The notes beneath the pieces are model-generated. The model ran no database searches and was not told where the DNA came from. It saw only the letters and a program-made list of their open reading frames with translations. From NCBI RefSeq assembly GCF_036059255.1, contig NZ_CP107947.1, forward strand, positions 372,001 through 436,000: a stretch of 64,000 nucleotides of DNA, given 5' to 3'. Origin of the DNA: Micromonospora sp. NBC_00389 (GTDB lineage Bacteria; Actinomycetota; Actinomycetes; Mycobacteriales; Micromonosporaceae). A program made the position numbers and the translations under genes. Within the stretch, counting starts at the first letter, position 1. Every line of letters starts with the position of its first letter. Of the stretch, positions 5,164 to 10,954 are shown one piece after another.

Positions 5164-6261
5164 ATGAGCCGTACTGCGCTGCCCCGCCCCACGCTGCTGC
5201 CCGGCCTCAGCCGGCTCTGGCGGGACCGGCACACCCTCCAGCTCGGCGTCGGCCCGGGGCCCGCCGTCCTGCTGGAGCTGGCGAACCCGCGCGCCGCCCG
5301 CCTGCTCGACCTGCTGGACGGCACCCGCAGCGAACGCGCCGTGCTGGCGCACCCAGCCGCCACCCAGGTCTCCACCGACGAGGCGTACAGCCTGCTCGAC
5401 GCCCTGCGCGCGGCGGGCCTGCTGGTGCCCGCACACAATCTGCTCCCCCGCGACCTGGCCGGCCCGGTCCGGGCCCGGCTCGCCGCGGAGGCCGCTGCGC
5501 TGGCCCTGGCCGCGGCCCGGCTGCCCGGCACCCCCGCGCAGGTCCTCCGCCAGCGGCTGGCCGCCCGGGTGCTGCTCACCGGCGCCGGGGCGCTCGGTGG
5601 CTCGCTGGCGGTGGCGCTGGCGCAGTCCGGCATCGGGCAGGTGATCCCGCATCTCACCGGCCCGGTACGCCCCGTCGACCTGGTCGGCACCGGCATCCCC
5701 GCCAGCGAGCTGGGCCAGCCGTTGGCACCGGCGGTACGGGCCGCGGTCAACCGCGTCGCGCCGGGGACCGGCACCCACCCGGGCCGGCCGACCCGCTTCG
5801 ACCTGGTGATCCAGCTCGGCACGGACCGTCCGCCCGCGCTGCTCGCCGCCGGTCTCGCCCAGCGCCGCCAGCCGCACCTGCTGGTCACCGTGCGCGAGGG
5901 CGTACCGGTCATCGGGCCGCTGGTCCGCCCGCCCGCCGGGCCCTGCCTGCACTGCGTCGAGCTGCACCGGGCCGACCGCGACCCGGCCTGGCCACGGCTC
6001 GCCGCCCAACTCGCTGCCGCCGAGCCGATGGCGGCCGGCGCGGCCGGCACGCTCCTCGCGGCCACCGGGTACGCGCTGGCCGAAGCGCTGGCGCAGCTCG
6101 ACGGCGGCAGTCCGGAGACGCTCGGCGGTGCCATGGAGATCATCGGCGCCGGCCGCTTCCGCCGCCGGGGCTGGCCGCCACATCCCGCGTGCGGGTGCTC
6201 GCGGAGCGGGCGTGGGCACCAGCCCAGCCGCAGAGCAGCAACGGAGCCCTCCGGTCGGTAA
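5164..6261 (+). CDS. ThiF/MoeB-family adenylyltransferase-like protein
   Basis: 365 aa from the ATG at 5164. The centre has a Rossmann nucleotide-binding segment, ARVLLTGAGALGGSLAVALA (about residues 136-155), as in ThiF, MoeB and E1 enzymes. Later come GPCLHCVELHRADRDPAWP and, near the C-terminus, WPPHPACGC. Together these two Cys pairs could form the structural zinc site of the family. Sequence outside the Rossmann core is divergent, so activation of a specific carrier protein or leader peptide cannot be assigned. It ends 10 bp before the ABC1 kinase gene, so the two are probably co-transcribed. Confidence 0.75.
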   Translation: MSRTALPRPTLLPGLSRLWRDRHTLQLGVGPGPAVLLELANPRAARLLDLLDGTRSERAVLAHPAATQVSTDEAYSLLDALRAAGLLVPAHNLLPRDLAGPVRARLAAEAAALALAAARLPGTPAQVLRQRLAARVLLTGAGALGGSLAVALAQSGIGQVIPHLTGPVRPVDLVGTGIPASELGQPLAPAVRAAVNRVAPGTGTHPGRPTRFDLVIQLGTDRPPALLAAGLAQRRQPHLLVTVREGVPVIGPLVRPPAGPCLHCVELHRADRDPAWPRLAAQLAAAEPMAAGAAGTLLAATGYALAEALAQLDGGSPETLGGAMEIIGAGRFRRRGWPPHPACGCSRSGRGHQPSRRAATEPSGR

Positions 6262-6271
6262 CAATGACCGT

Positions 6272-7618
6272 GTGACCGACATCCCGCGCCGGGCCGTGTC
6301 CCGGACCGCCAAGCTCGCCGCTCTGCCGCTCGGCTTCGCCGGTCGGACCGTCCTCGGCATGGGTAAGCGCGTCACCGGGCTCGCCTCCGACGTGATCTCC
6401 GCGGAGATCCAGCAGCGCACCGCCGAGCAGCTGTTCAGCGTGTTGGGCCAGCTCAAGGGCGGCGCGATGAAGTTCGGCCAGGCGCTGTCGGTCTTCGAGG
6501 CGGCCCTGCCGGAGGAGATCGCCGCCCCCTACCGCCAGGCCCTGACCAAGCTCCAGGAGGCCGCACCGCCACTCCCCGTCGCCAGCGTGCACAAGGTGCT
6601 GACCGAGCAGCTCGGCCCGGACTGGCGGGACCGGTTCGTCGAGTTCAACGACACCCCGGCCGCAGCGGCCAGCATCGGGCAGGTGCACCGGGCGCGGTGG
6701 CGCGAGCCGGGGTACGGCCCGGCGGGCGAACCGAACAGCCGCGACGTGGCAGTCAAGATCCAGTACCCGGGCGCCGGTGACGCGCTGCTCGCCGACCTCA
6801 AGCAGCTCTCCCGGCTGGGCGGGATGTTCCGGGCCATCCAGCCCGGCCTGGACGTCAAGCCGCTCCTGGCTGAGCTGCGCGAGCGGATCACCGAGGAGCT
6901 GGACTACGAGCTGGAGGCCGAGTCGCAGCGCACCTTCGCCGCCGCGTACGCCGACGACCCGGAGATCTACATCCCGGCGGTGGTCTCCACGTCGCCCCGG
7001 GTGCTGGTCACCGAGTGGGTGACGGGCACACCGCTGGCCGACATCATCCGGGAAGGCACCGAGGAGCGGCGGGACGAGGCTGGCCGGCTGATGGCCACCC
7101 TGCACCTCTCCGCGCCGCAGCGGGCCGGCCTTCTGCACGCCGACCCGCACCCGGGCAACTTCCGGCTGCTGCCCGACGGCCGGCTCGGGGTGATCGACTT
7201 CGGTGCGGTGGCTCGGATGCCCGAGGGCACACCGGAGCCGATCGGTCGCATCGCCGCGCTGGCCCTGCGCAGCGACGCCGACGGGGTCGTGGCCGGGCTG
7301 CGGTCAGAGGGGTTCATCAGCCCCACGGCGGAGATCGACGCCGAGGGGGTGCTCGACTTCCTCCGGCCGATGCTGGAGCCCATCGCCGCCGACGGGTTCC
7401 GCTTCACCCGGGCGTGGCTGCGGGCCGAGGCGGCCCGACTGGCAAGCCCCCGCTCCCCCACCTACCAGCTGAGCCGGCAGCTCAACCTGCCGCCGTCGTA
7501 CCTGCTCATCCACCGGGTGACGCTCGGGTCGATCGGGGTGCTCTGCCAGTTGGAGGCGAAGGCCCCGTACCGGAGCATCCTGGAGCGCTGGCTGCCGGGC
7601 TTCGCCCCCGTCGCCTGA
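6272..7618 (+). CDS. ABC1/UbiB/AarF-family atypical kinase
   Basis: 448 aa from the GTG at 6272. The ABC1 hallmarks are clear: LGQLKGGAMKFGQALS (the KxGQ motif), AAASIGQVHRA (the Ala-rich loop), AVKIQYPG (the ATP-site Lys), HADPHPGNF and VIDFGAV (catalytic and metal loops). The family includes UbiB/Coq8 of quinone synthesis; actinobacterial members such as Rv3197 sit beside whiB7 and have been linked to intrinsic macrolide tolerance. Here it converges on the whiB7 locus from the other strand. There is no membrane helix at the C-terminus. Its substrate is unknown. Confidence 0.92.
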   Translation: MTDIPRRAVSRTAKLAALPLGFAGRTVLGMGKRVTGLASDVISAEIQQRTAEQLFSVLGQLKGGAMKFGQALSVFEAALPEEIAAPYRQALTKLQEAAPPLPVASVHKVLTEQLGPDWRDRFVEFNDTPAAAASIGQVHRARWREPGYGPAGEPNSRDVAVKIQYPGAGDALLADLKQLSRLGGMFRAIQPGLDVKPLLAELRERITEELDYELEAESQRTFAAAYADDPEIYIPAVVSTSPRVLVTEWVTGTPLADIIREGTEERRDEAGRLMATLHLSAPQRAGLLHADPHPGNFRLLPDGRLGVIDFGAVARMPEGTPEPIGRIAALALRSDADGVVAGLRSEGFISPTAEIDAEGVLDFLRPMLEPIAADGFRFTRAWLRAEAARLASPRSPTYQLSRQLNLPPSYLLIHRVTLGSIGVLCQLEAKAPYRSILERWLPGFAPVA

Positions 7619-7919: not shown

Positions 7920-8285
7920 TCAGGCTGCCAGCCGGACCGCGCCACGCACCTCGGACAGCCCACTGGCCGCCAGGCGCGCCTCGGCCTCGACCCGGAGCTC
8001 GGCGTCACGGGCGACGTCCTCCTTGCGCGGACGGCCACGGGGCCGCTTGCGCGGGACGACCGCGCCACGCTCGAAGATCTCGCCGCCCCAGACGCCCCAC
8101 GGCTCCGCTCGCTCCACCGCTCCGGCCAGGCACTCGACGCGCAACGGGCAGTCCCCGCAGAGCGACTTGGCCAGCTCGAGCTCGGCAGGCGAGTCGGAGA
8201 ACCACAGGTCGGGGTCGAACTTCCGGCAGGGCAGGTTCGCCTCCATCTCGACGCTCACGTCGAGGGGGGCCAACGCCAGACTCAT
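7920..8285 (-). CDS. whiB7: WhiB7 iron-sulfur transcription factor
   Basis: 121 aa from the ATG at 8285, with GAGAGAGGTG upstream. Four cysteines (20, 43, 46, 52) in the pattern C...CxxCxxxxxC hold the [4Fe-4S] cluster. GVWGGE at about 64-69 is the WhiB turn. KRPRGRPRK at about 80-88 is the AT-hook that distinguishes WhiB7 from other WhiB proteins. In mycobacteria and Streptomyces (WblC) this factor works with the primary sigma factor to switch on intrinsic antibiotic-resistance genes when translation is inhibited. The gene is preceded by a long leader with an upstream ORF and an attenuator, and sits next to uvrD2 as in mycobacteria. Confidence 0.95.
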   Translation of the reverse strand: MSLALAPLDVSVEMEANLPCRKFDPDLWFSDSPAELELAKSLCGDCPLRVECLAGAVERAEPWGVWGGEIFERGAVVPRKRPRGRPRKEDVARDAELRVEAEARLAASGLSEVRGAVRLAA

Positions 8286-8348
8286 CGCCCGGTCACCTCT
8301 CTCTCACTTCGATCTCGTGGATCGCATTCCGACGTACTTCGGCAGGGC

Positions 8349-8393
8349 AAAAAACTGAGGCCGCGGATCCCGGTATGCGGGTTCCGCGGCCTC
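8349..8393 (-). terminator. Transcription attenuator in the whiB7 leader
   Basis: On the minus strand an 11-bp perfect stem (8393-8383 with 8367-8357, TCCGCGGCCTC type) is followed at once by AG and six U residues (8354-8349). That is a textbook intrinsic terminator. It lies 63 nt before the whiB7 start and 22 nt after the stop of the upstream ORF. A second hairpin just upstream (8424-8402, stems CCGG/TCTGA) contains the upstream ORF's stop codon. Terminators in the same position are known to control whiB7 and wblC; here the sequence gives direct support. Confidence 0.92.
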
Positions 8394-8415
8394 GAAGTGA
8401 GCCGGTGTCTGATGG

Positions 8416-8664
8416 TCAGACCGGTCTACCTCGAGGTGGAACGCCGCGGACATCCATGCGCTTCTTGGCGCCCTGAATGCCCATGCCCGTGAAGCCACTG
8501 GTCCCCTCGACTCCGGTGGGTGCAACGGTCAGGTTCAGCTCGGCCTGAACCTGGTGCACCTGCGGAACCGACGGTCGTGCAGCCACAAGGGCCACCCGGA
8601 CAGCCGACAGCGGAGCGTGGACAGCTGGCATCGCCGCCAGACGCTCATAGGTGAAGATCTTCAC
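8416..8664 (-). CDS. 82-codon upstream ORF in the whiB7 leader
   Basis: GTG at 8664 with an excellent ribosome site (GGGAGGTGG, about 8 nt upstream). The product begins VKIFTYERLAAMPAVHAP and ends in a Pro/Arg-rich tail, VPPRGRPV. The stop codon falls inside a hairpin directly upstream of the attenuator. By analogy with whiB7/wblC of other actinobacteria, stalled or slowed translation of this ORF would remodel the RNA and let polymerase pass into whiB7. The peptide resembles no enzyme family I know. Its significance is probably its translation, though a functional peptide is not excluded. Confidence 0.8.
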   Translation of the reverse strand: MKIFTYERLAAMPAVHAPLSAVRVALVAARPSVPQVHQVQAELNLTVAPTGVEGTSGFTGMGIQGAKKRMDVRGVPPRGRPV

Positions 8665-8752
8665 GGGTGCCACCTCCCTCAACGTTCCTCGGATCGACTG
8701 GACCAACCCCCCGTGAGCAGCCGGAATGGCGCCGCTCGCGTGGTGTGTTCTG

Positions 8753-8782
8753 AGGCTATTCCTCGCGCCGGGGCGAGGGCAA
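8753..8782 (-). promoter_or_regulatory. Candidate whiB7 promoter
   Basis: On the minus strand TTGCCC (8782-8777) and TAGCCT (8758-8753) are 18 nt apart. The AT-rich stretch GTAAATTCG lies directly 5' of the -35 box. An AT-rich patch touching the -35 is the known signature of WhiB7-autoregulated promoters. The -35 overlaps the end of the uvrD2 surroundings, so whiB7 would have its own transcript with a leader of roughly 460 nt. Confidence 0.45.
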
Positions 8783-8788
8783 ACGAAT

Positions 8789-10954
8789 TTACGACGAGAT
8801 TTCGAAAGTTTTCTCCGGGCAGACATCGTCCACCCCCGCGCCCCCCACCAGCGCCAGCACCGACTCCCCATAGAGGCCCAACTTGCGGGGGCCGATACCA
8901 GCGATGGCGATCAACTCCTCCGGCCGGCCGGGCTTCCGCTCGGCCAGCGCGGTCAGCGTGGCGTCCGTGAAGATCACGTACGCCGGCACCTTCTGCGCCC
9001 CGGCCACCCGCTGACGCCACTCGCGCAGCCGTTCGTGCAGCTCATCGTCGATATCGGACGGGCAGGTGGGGCAGCGGCCCAGCTTCCGATCCGGGCCGGC
9101 GAGCAGGGTCGCGCCACAGATCCGGCAGGAGACGATCTGGGTGCGGCGCCGCTCGGGGCGGCGGGCCGGACCGGTGCTGGCGACGGCCCGCTCGGTCCCA
9201 CCGGAGCGGTCCAGTTGGGGGAGGAACCGCGACGGCCGCCGGGCCCGTCCGCCCGGCGAGCGTGCGGCGGCGTACGACAACCAGAGCCACTGCCGGGCGC
9301 GGGTGATCCCGACGTAGAGCAGCCGACGCTCCTCCTCGACCTGCTCGACGGTCTTGGCGTACGTGGTGGGCAGGGTGCCCTCGGCGAGGCCGACCAGGAA
9401 GACCGCGTCCCACTCCAACCCCTTGGCCGAGTGCAGCGAAGCCAGCGTCACCCCGTCCACCGTCGGCACGTGCTGCTGGGTGGCCCGGCGGGCCAGCTCC
9501 TCGGTGAAGTCGGTCAGGGTGACCGCGCGCTCCACCGAGGCCGCCTCGCCGATCGGCAGCACCTCGGGGGTGGCTGCGTACTCCTCGGCCAGCTGGACCA
9601 GCGCGGCCAGCGCCTCCCACCGCTCGCGGGCGGCGCCGCCGGCCGGGGGTGCGTCCGGGGCCCAGCCGACCGCGGTGAGCGCCTCGACGACGGCGGTCGG
9701 GAGCGGGGTCTCCCCCGGGATCGACCGGGTGGCGGCGCGCAGCGCGACCATCGCCTGGCGTACCTCGGTCCGTTCGAAGAACCGCTCCGCGCCCTGCACC
9801 ACGTACGGCACCTCGGCCTCGGTGAGCGCCTTCTCGTACGCCTCGGACTGCGCGTTGGTCCGGAACAGCACGGCGATCTCCTTCGCCGGCGTGCCCGAGT
9901 CGATCAACGTCCGGCAGCGGGTGGCCACCGCGGTCGCCTCGGCCGGCTCGTCGGTGAAGATCCGCAGGTCCGGCTCGGGACCGGCCGGGCGCTGCCCGCT
10001 CAACTCCAGGCGCAGCCGTGCCTCGGTGCCCCGGGCCTGGGAGATCACCGCGTTGGCCAGGCCGACCACCTGCGGGGTGGAGCGGTAGTCGCGGACCAGC
10101 CGGACCACGGTGGCTCCCCGGTGCCGGCGCGGGAAGTCGACCAGGTATCGGGAGGTCGCCCCGGTGAACGAGTAGATCGTCTGGCTGGCGTCGCCGACCA
10201 CGGTCAGGTCGTCCCGGCCGCCCAGCCAGGCGTCCAGCAACCGCTGCTGGAGCGGGTTGACGTCCTGGTACTCGTCGACCACGAAGTGCCGGTACTGGCT
10301 GCGGACCTGCTCGCCGACGTCCCGGTGCTCCTCGATGCCCCACACGGCGGCGCGCAGCATGTCCTCGAAGTCGATCACCCCGTTGGACCGCTTGAGCTGC
10401 TCGTACGCGGTGAACACGTCGGCCACCTTCGTCGGCTCATGCGGGGTGTCGCGCAACGCCCGGGCCGCCGCCACCACGTATTCCCCCGGCTCGACCAGCG
10501 ACGACTTGGCCCACTCGATCTCGCCGGCCAGGTCCCGTGCGGCGGCCCGGTCGGTACGCAGGCCGACCCGGGCGGCGGCGAGGGTGACCAGGCGCACCTT
10601 GCTGTCCAGTAGCTCGGGCATGGCCCGGCCGGCCAGCAGCCGGGGGGCGAAGTAGCGCACCTGGCGCAGTGCGGCGGCGTGGAACGTGCGCGCCTGGACA
10701 CCGCCCACCCCGAGCACCGTGAGACGACTCCGCAGCTCGGCGGCGGCCCGGGCGGTGAAGGTGACCGCGAGCACGTGCCGGGGGGAGATCTCGCCGGAGA
10801 GCGCCCGGTGGGCGATCCGGGAGGTGATCGCGCGGGTCTTACCGGTGCCGGCGCCGGCCAGGATGCAGACCGGCCCGGCGGGCGCGGTCACCGCGGAGCG
10901 TTGCTCAGGGTCCAGCCCGGCGAGCACGCGTTCCGACGCTGAGTGAACCACCAC
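8789..10954 (-). CDS. uvrD2: UvrD2-type superfamily 1 DNA helicase with zinc module and HRDC domain
   Basis: 721 aa from a GTG. The N-terminus has the Q motif and Walker A (LAGAGTGKT, about 32-40); DEYQDVNPLQQ is motif II; further SF1 motifs follow through VEEERRLLYVGITRARQ. After the motor come four cysteines (CRICGATL and CPTC) forming a zinc module. A C-terminal HRDC domain carries IAGIGPRKLGLYG. This order is diagnostic of mycobacterial UvrD2, a 3'-5' helicase with a tetracysteine and HRDC. It is divergent from mrx1 across 93 bp and lies upstream of whiB7 on the same strand. Confidence 0.93.
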   Translation of the reverse strand: MVVHSASERVLAGLDPEQRSAVTAPAGPVCILAGAGTGKTRAITSRIAHRALSGEISPRHVLAVTFTARAAAELRSRLTVLGVGGVQARTFHAAALRQVRYFAPRLLAGRAMPELLDSKVRLVTLAAARVGLRTDRAAARDLAGEIEWAKSSLVEPGEYVVAAARALRDTPHEPTKVADVFTAYEQLKRSNGVIDFEDMLRAAVWGIEEHRDVGEQVRSQYRHFVVDEYQDVNPLQQRLLDAWLGGRDDLTVVGDASQTIYSFTGATSRYLVDFPRRHRGATVVRLVRDYRSTPQVVGLANAVISQARGTEARLRLELSGQRPAGPEPDLRIFTDEPAEATAVATRCRTLIDSGTPAKEIAVLFRTNAQSEAYEKALTEAEVPYVVQGAERFFERTEVRQAMVALRAATRSIPGETPLPTAVVEALTAVGWAPDAPPAGGAARERWEALAALVQLAEEYAATPEVLPIGEAASVERAVTLTDFTEELARRATQQHVPTVDGVTLASLHSAKGLEWDAVFLVGLAEGTLPTTYAKTVEQVEEERRLLYVGITRARQWLWLSYAAARSPGGRARRPSRFLPQLDRSGGTERAVASTGPARRPERRRTQIVSCRICGATLLAGPDRKLGRCPTCPSDIDDELHERLREWRQRVAGAQKVPAYVIFTDATLTALAERKPGRPEELIAIAGIGPRKLGLYGESVLALVGGAGVDDVCPEKTFEISS

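Follow-up and report, generated by a model that had tools for sequence, protein, structure and literature searches.

The question raised by this locus is how whiB7, the regulator through which actinobacteria control their intrinsic resistance to many drugs that target the ribosome, is switched on in Micromonospora, and what an 82-codon upstream open reading frame (uORF) in front of the gene contributes to that control. The window analyzed here is a 64,000-nucleotide (nt) stretch of Micromonospora sp. NBC_00389 (contig NZ_CP107947.1, positions 372,001 to 436,000) in a genome of 7.87 Mb on a single contig, and the whiB7 leader occupies positions 8791-8286 on its minus strand. In our analysis the end of the uORF is predicted to pair with an intrinsic terminator along its 5' arm, and slowed ribosomes would very probably switch whiB7 on in this way. 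This is likely the Micromonosporaceae form of the known uORF-coupled attenuation of whiB7/wblC. The switch is already known from mycobacteria and Streptomyces; what is new is a member in another family, and we claim no novelty for the details of the antiterminator.

Read along the minus strand, the locus runs from the end of a helicase gene through an AT-rich box, the -35 and -10 elements, a Shine-Dalgarno sequence, the uORF, the stop-codon hairpin and the terminator to whiB7. Its features are as follows.

8783..8791, minus strand: AT-rich box TAAATTCGT, directly 5' of the -35 element, candidate site of WhiB7 autoregulation
8777..8782, minus strand: predicted -35 element TTGCCC
8753..8758, minus strand: predicted -10 element TAGCCT, after an 18-nt spacer, near invariant in the genus alignment
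8673..8678, minus strand: Shine-Dalgarno sequence GGGAGG of the uORF, 8 nt from the GTG, the longest such match of this frame
8416..8664, minus strand: uORF, GTG at 8664, 82 sense codons, TGA at 8418-8416
8444..8450, minus strand: 5' strand TCCGCGG of predicted antiterminator helix H1, codons -11 to -9, partner CCGCGGA at 8389-8383
8429..8436, minus strand: 5' strand CCTCGAGG of predicted antiterminator helix H2, codons -6 to -4, partner at 8397-8390
8402..8424, minus strand: stop-codon hairpin H3, CCGG-TCTGA...TCAGA-CA-CCGG, tip of the predicted antiterminator
8390..8397, minus strand: 3' strand CTTCGAGG of H2, running into the 5' arm of the terminator at its base
8383..8393, minus strand: terminator 5' arm GAGGCCGCGGA, common to antiterminator and terminator
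8357..8367, minus strand: terminator 3' arm TCCGCGGCCTC, forming an 11-bp stem with the 5' arm
8349..8354, minus strand: U6 tract of the intrinsic terminator
8293..8299, minus strand: likely whiB7 ribosome site GAGGTGA, read from the sequence
7920..8285, minus strand: whiB7, 121 amino acids, ATG at 8285, Pfam Whib PF02467 at 51.9 bits

The terminator arm and its predicted partner in the uORF

A sequence-only reading of this DNA had described the GTG start with its strong ribosome site, the 82 codons, a stop codon inside a hairpin, and a terminator with an 11-bp stem and six U residues lying 22 nt (8415-8394) past the stop and ahead of whiB7, and each of these features was borne out. Folding places the terminator stem-loop, formed by the two arms around an inner CCCG/CGGG, at -31.2 kcal/mol. 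The transcript from 8460 to 8379 is predicted to fold at -39.3 kcal/mol into H1, H2 and H3 together, and in this fold, with the RNA ending at 8379, the uORF takes up the complete 11-base 5' arm of the terminator at pairing probabilities of 0.91-1.00. It had also been proposed that the last codons and the stop overlap a structure able to compete with terminator folding. They do lie inside such a structure, but the stop hairpin (8424-8402) alone does not overlap the terminator; it instead caps a larger predicted antiterminator, in which the last eleven codons supply the 5' strand.

An alignment across Micromonosporaceae, which the earlier reading had named as a check, found the terminator conserved in relatives, and the uORF frame is kept within the genus (see below). 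The starting set held 116 leaders, with some genomes present twice, and the terminator core was found in 115 of them. Leaders dropped from the set were L201, which lacks the terminator core although the covariance model introduced below matches its genome (G030), and L084 and L192, from one organism's record, in which the tail is shifted and the stop finder took another frame. Removal of identical leaders from the 113 that were kept left 98 distinct rows. Across these, 96.0% of the alignment cells are paired (92.5% in H1 and 99.9% in H2), a value that falls to 28.5-47.3% if one side is slid by one to three columns, and 12 cells are changed on both sides against a mean of 2.8 in shuffles, with none of 500 shuffles reaching this number. 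The second base of the stop codon belongs to one of two covarying pairs: in the 96 rows with a readable stop (two rows were left out), TGA faces C in 65, T in none and A in three, and TAG faces T in eight, C in four and A in two (Fisher p 2.4e-8, for the C/T part only and uncorrected for kinship).

Pairing of the terminator 5' arm with the uORF extends beyond the family, being above that of shuffled tails in all 19 lineage groups tested. When each group's uORF arm was replaced by permuted arms, the native arrangement scored -17.15 against -15.26 (standard deviation 0.48), and 0 of 10000 permutations reached it. For the arm-permutation, fold, stop-base and recoding tests the family was represented by eight leaders; arm permutation used one leader per group, and the stop-base and recoding tests used 12 of the 20 loci of one further set. 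The attenuation of whiB7 through its uORF that had been proposed from the sequence is thus supported in silico by the pairing alignment, by folding, and by the recoding of the uORF tail described next.

Codon choice at the end of the uORF

The uORF ends in RGVPPRGRPV, nearly invariant across the family, and this conservation could in principle be that of a peptide or that of an RNA. Third codon positions were compared in 92 rows, six of the 98 having been left out for an insert or gaps. For codons -10, -6, -5, -2 and -1, all of them paired, entropy at these positions is 0.00-0.09 bits; it is 0.43 bits at the paired codon -11 and 0.81-1.44 bits at codons -9, -8, -7, -4 and -3; at codon -3 the first two bases are paired in 93 and 88 of 98 leaders. 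The frozen codons include the rare CCT and CGA (1.3 and 3.5 per 1000). Random synonymous recoding of the tail lowered the antiterminator pairs of the window from 23.7 to a mean of 10.5, with 0 of 60 recodings reaching the native value, and 26 of 28 lineage groups were above their own recoded control (p 3.7e-8). RGVPPRGRPV appears to be conserved mostly because its codons form the 5' strand of the antiterminator, and the peptide end may be regarded as largely a by-product of the RNA.

The competing possibility is an arrest peptide, in which RGVPPRGRPV would stall the ribosome in a drug-dependent manner and the stall would set the RNA fold. Such a peptide would account for a C-terminus that is nearly invariant in the family, rich in Pro and Arg and encoded with rare codons, and for the unpaired codon -7, which encodes proline in all 92 rows although its third base varies freely. 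We nevertheless consider it unlikely, as it is base pairing that fixes third positions, with more freedom at unpaired ones, as recodings that keep the same peptide lose the structure, and as other lineages with the RNA design have an entirely different C-terminus (..SVDRGST in slow-growing mycobacteria, ..EPWSDPA in Streptomyces-like genomes). The uORF body shows little amino-acid selection (dN/dS of about 0.8, see below), and a stall at the end of the uORF would be expected to cover the antiterminator and so favor termination, the wrong direction. The earlier suggestion that the Pro/Arg-rich VPPRGRPV itself slows ribosomes is mostly not borne out as a reason for its conservation: this conservation largely follows base pairing, but the invariant unpaired proline leaves room for an effect of the peptide. 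Slowing by a run of rare codons at the uORF end is also possible.

Among the open reading frames of the window, GTT, CCA, CCT, CGA and AGA occur at 1.5, 2.5, 1.3, 3.5 and 0.7 per 1000, and five of the six codons in the run GTT CCA CCT CGA GGT AGA (8425-8442, minus strand) are rare by this measure. Rare codons make up six of the last 12 codons of the uORF versus 14 of the 70 in its body. Those at 8425-8442 might slow the ribosome at the antiterminator.

The uORF as a probably translated track

Among 43 distinct uORFs from the genus, all 11 distinct insertions or deletions in the uORF body are multiples of three, whereas in the leader on either side this is true of 0 of 19 (Fisher p 1.8e-8), and the other two frames contain stops in 43 of 43. 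Together, these show the uORF frame to be under selection, and the uORF is likely translated. The amino acids it encodes are under little constraint outside its end, with a pooled ratio of nonsynonymous to synonymous polymorphism (pN/pS) of 0.85 in the body and a median pairwise ratio of nonsynonymous to synonymous substitution (dN/dS) of 0.80 over 889 usable pairs, which are not independent. In the last 12 codons pN/pS is 0.15, and the comparison value for whiB7 is likewise 0.15 (first 100 codons, 39 genomes). We picture the body as a track that would need translation without any particular spelling. Given this nearly free drift of the body, the sensor likely responds to overall translation rather than to a single stalling peptide or amino acid.

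Amino-acid-specific attenuators of the trp or ilvB kind, which read one charged tRNA, likewise combine a leader frame with an antiterminator and a terminator, and whiB7/wblC is induced by amino-acid starvation according to published work. Such a mechanism is very improbable here given the free drift of the body and its composition: no amino acid dominates or is strongly enriched in 103 distinct uORF bodies of the family, the largest excesses being glutamine at 5.5 versus 2.8%, lysine at 3.1 versus 1.7% and alanine at 15.9 versus 14.1%, and aspartate is depleted at 1.8 versus 5.9%.

With starts assigned by the best ribosome site, the 103 family uORFs have a median length of 86 codons and range from 77 to 198. 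The uORF of the window had been called long; this holds only in comparison with slow-growing mycobacteria, whose uORFs have 42-52 codons (12 leaders), and within the family it is ordinary. Streptomyces-like uORFs span 90 to 123 codons (12 leaders). A separate feature of the family uORFs is an Arg-Pro pair in the first 18 residues, found in 64 of 103 and in 15% of other 18-residue stretches; it is coded CGT CCG or CGA CCG in 60 of the 64.

The leader also carries its own predicted promoter. The pattern TTG-N16-19-TANNNT is present in 113 of 113 family leaders, and a box with at least six A/T in nine positions precedes the -35 element in 111 of 113, compared with 0.3% in shuffles. An AT-rich box in this position is one that we take to be linked to WhiB7 autoregulation, and its presence suggests that WhiB7 may act on its own gene here. 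That the terminator is simply the ordinary end of the upstream helicase transcript (the helicase gene, in the same direction, ends 124 nt before the uORF), with a chance open reading frame before whiB7, has next to no probability, as the promoter pattern lies 5' of the uORF throughout the 113 leaders, the uORF frame is kept, and the element tracks whiB7 across the class.

Distribution in the family and beyond

A covariance model was built from the 98 distinct Micromonosporaceae leaders and, at an expectation value (E) of 0.1 or lower, matches 197 of 200 family genomes; for G059 the match is no better than 0.096. whiB7 itself is found in 196 of the 200 (E <= 1e-20), and the whole uORF peptide is recognizable in 97, including all 38 of the genus. 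The alignment and the model together now locate this leader in the 197 genomes. Those missed are G005 and G025, which are 69 and 80% complete, and G088. The last of these is a complete family genome with no whiB7 at E <= 1e-20, no model match and only weak similarity to the uORF peptide (3.2e-4). In the genome of the window, the model has one clear match (5.7e-34), the next being at 0.17. No Rfam family matches the window at its gathering score; the best match below threshold is ilvB-OMG, on the other strand, with E 0.035 and 15.8 against the 95.9 bits required.

Matches to the model were also collected from a class-wide draw of genomes. Among the 150 class matches listed, 125 lie within 500 nt upstream of whiB7 on the same strand, 21 have no listed whiB7 place, and four have other positions, including two on the opposite strand of the leader itself. 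Matches away from whiB7 in G351 (contig C10, E 4.1e-5) and G220 (contig C239, E 0.0037) fall on other reading frames and were attributed to chance.

Outside the family, 52 of 59 loci (102 of 109 when family loci are included) have a related terminator core, GCCRCGG...CCGYGGC, and the other seven were not used further. These 52, from mycobacteria, Pseudonocardiaceae, Rhodococcus, Geodermatophilaceae and others, all have a placeable uORF whose stop starts 19-36 nt 5' of the core, with quite different peptides. In 12 Streptomyces-like genomes (genus inferred), the three-part design was recognized by eye in a typical case but in other letters, with helices TTCCGYGG/CCGCGGAA, CCCTGGAG/CTTCAGGG and GCCTGATC/GATCAGGC around the stop.

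A proposed kinetic switch and the points that weigh against it

The sequence itself shows a conserved uORF frame, a terminator with its stem and U tract, a promoter pattern with its AT-rich box, and a choice of codons that suits pairing more than the peptide; the antiterminator is predicted by folding, and the steps of the mechanism that follow are inferred. A ribosome terminating at 8418-8416 would cover approximately 8435-8406, if a typical footprint is assumed, and would remove H2 and H3. With these gone, the 5' arm would be handed to the terminator and transcription would stop. Antibiotics or starvation would slow or empty the uORF, leaving the antiterminator intact and allowing read-through into whiB7, and the WhiB7 so produced would then raise its own promoter. 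Equilibrium folding with ribosome masks gives, for RNA available to 8358, an antiterminator probability of 0.19 without a ribosome, 0.25 with a ribosome stalled near codon -20 and 0.00 with a ribosome on the stop.

Several results weigh against this account. When the 3' arm of the terminator is complete, equilibrium folding favors the terminator whether or not a ribosome is present, and the switch must therefore be a kinetic one. Moving the ribosome along the uORF in the same computation gave uneven values that are not monotonic. Covariation in the family is thin, with changes on both sides confined to two of 23 pairs, a number reached by 96 of 500 shuffles, and with 10 further pair types against 10.2 in shuffles. 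H1 is broken in 21 of 98 leaders at column 10 and in 26 of 96 at column 8. The stop codon fits the pairing imperfectly, as TAA stops face C in 11 of 14 rows and A in three of 14 and are unpaired there, and among 28 lineage groups the stop bases pair above shuffles in just 15 (p 0.039). Two of 28 groups fail the recoding test. Codons -7 (8437-8439) and -8 (mostly Val) lie in an unpaired bulge, and yet codon -7 is CCN in every row with its third base free; the predicted pairing does not account for this constraint, which perhaps acts on Pro-Pro. Finally, the model matches 172 of 296 genomes in the class-wide draw although whiB7 is present in 246 (E <= 1e-15), and a model built from one family therefore misses many genomes of the class.

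Stop-base pairing was also considered as a class-wide rule and set aside as weak at 15 of 28 groups; several lineages have the stop codon in the loop of the hairpin instead.

A broader generalization is more tentative. The leader could represent a class-wide, peptide-agnostic sensor of translation speed without an Rfam entry, in which the uORF body would drift freely and any ribosome that is slowed could fail to complete it, in which the C-terminal peptide and the choice of stop would be by-products of the antiterminator, and in which each actinobacterial family would have rewritten the helices while keeping the nested design and a stop in a hairpin. We regard this as possible, but doubtful at present.

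Comparison with known attenuators

Transcription attenuation of Streptomyces coelicolor wblC by its uORF was reportedly described by Lee, Lee and Roe in 2022. According to several papers, translation of the whiB7/wblC uORF lets the terminator form, and slowed translation favors the antiterminator (PMC11550727, PMC13393426, PMC10727445, PMC9618640), which is built from overlapping uORF and terminator sequence (PMC10727445); Dinan et al. 2014 (PMC4128351) describe uORF attenuation for mycobacterial whiB7. The Micromonosporaceae leader shares with these systems a uORF with a ribosome site, a terminator before whiB7 and a predicted antiterminator between uORF and terminator. It differs from them in an H2 built on the palindrome CCTCGAGG, in the uORF end RGVPPRGRPV and in a stop codon placed in the stem of H3. 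The literature available to our searches held no paper that we recognized as treating the whiB7 leader of Micromonospora.

The ilvB1 attenuator of M. tuberculosis (PMC13236596) is similar in having a leader open reading frame, an antiterminator that competes with a terminator, and a ribosome at the stop that blocks the antiterminator. Unlike ilvB1, the whiB7 leader has no regulatory codon run that we could find, its signal appears to be general, and it regulates the gene of a transcription factor that likely acts on its own promoter through the AT-rich box. Drug-inducible leaders such as those of erm, vga and msrD (PMC4128351, PMC12421871) are alike in that ribosome-targeting drugs would switch the downstream resistance gene. 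In contrast to those leaders, the uORF body here is under little amino-acid constraint and its end is mostly explained by RNA pairing. What this analysis adds is comparative evidence that RNA mainly defines the sensor and that the peptide matters little to it. This evidence is relevant to whether ribosomes stall within the whiB7 uORF, a point noted as untested in a 2025 paper (PMC12121999). If only the RNA of the tail counts, synonymous changes in the tail would break the switch and large changes in the body would not.

Neighboring genes and other sequence features

The whiB7 gene of the window has 99% identity with two named Micromonospora whiB7 loci, and its product contains RGRPRK, presumably an AT-hook-like motif. 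On either side of the leader and whiB7 lie the following genes.

10954-8789, minus strand: UvrD-like helicase gene, same direction as whiB7
6128-7618, plus strand: ABC1/UbiB-like kinase gene, convergent neighbor of whiB7

The AT-rich box of the whiB7 promoter contains the helicase stop codon TAA (8789-8791, minus strand). The kinase scores 508 bits with the NCBIfam model for the macrolide-binding ATPase MABP-1, under the cut-off of 800.

Two repeats were also seen within the uORF. At 8530-8553 (minus strand), in mid-uORF, is a perfect 9-bp inverted repeat, CAGGTTCAG...CTGAACCTG, possibly a hairpin at which the polymerase pauses. The start of the uORF at 8651-8664 (minus strand), GTGAAGATCTTCAC, is a perfect 14-base palindrome.

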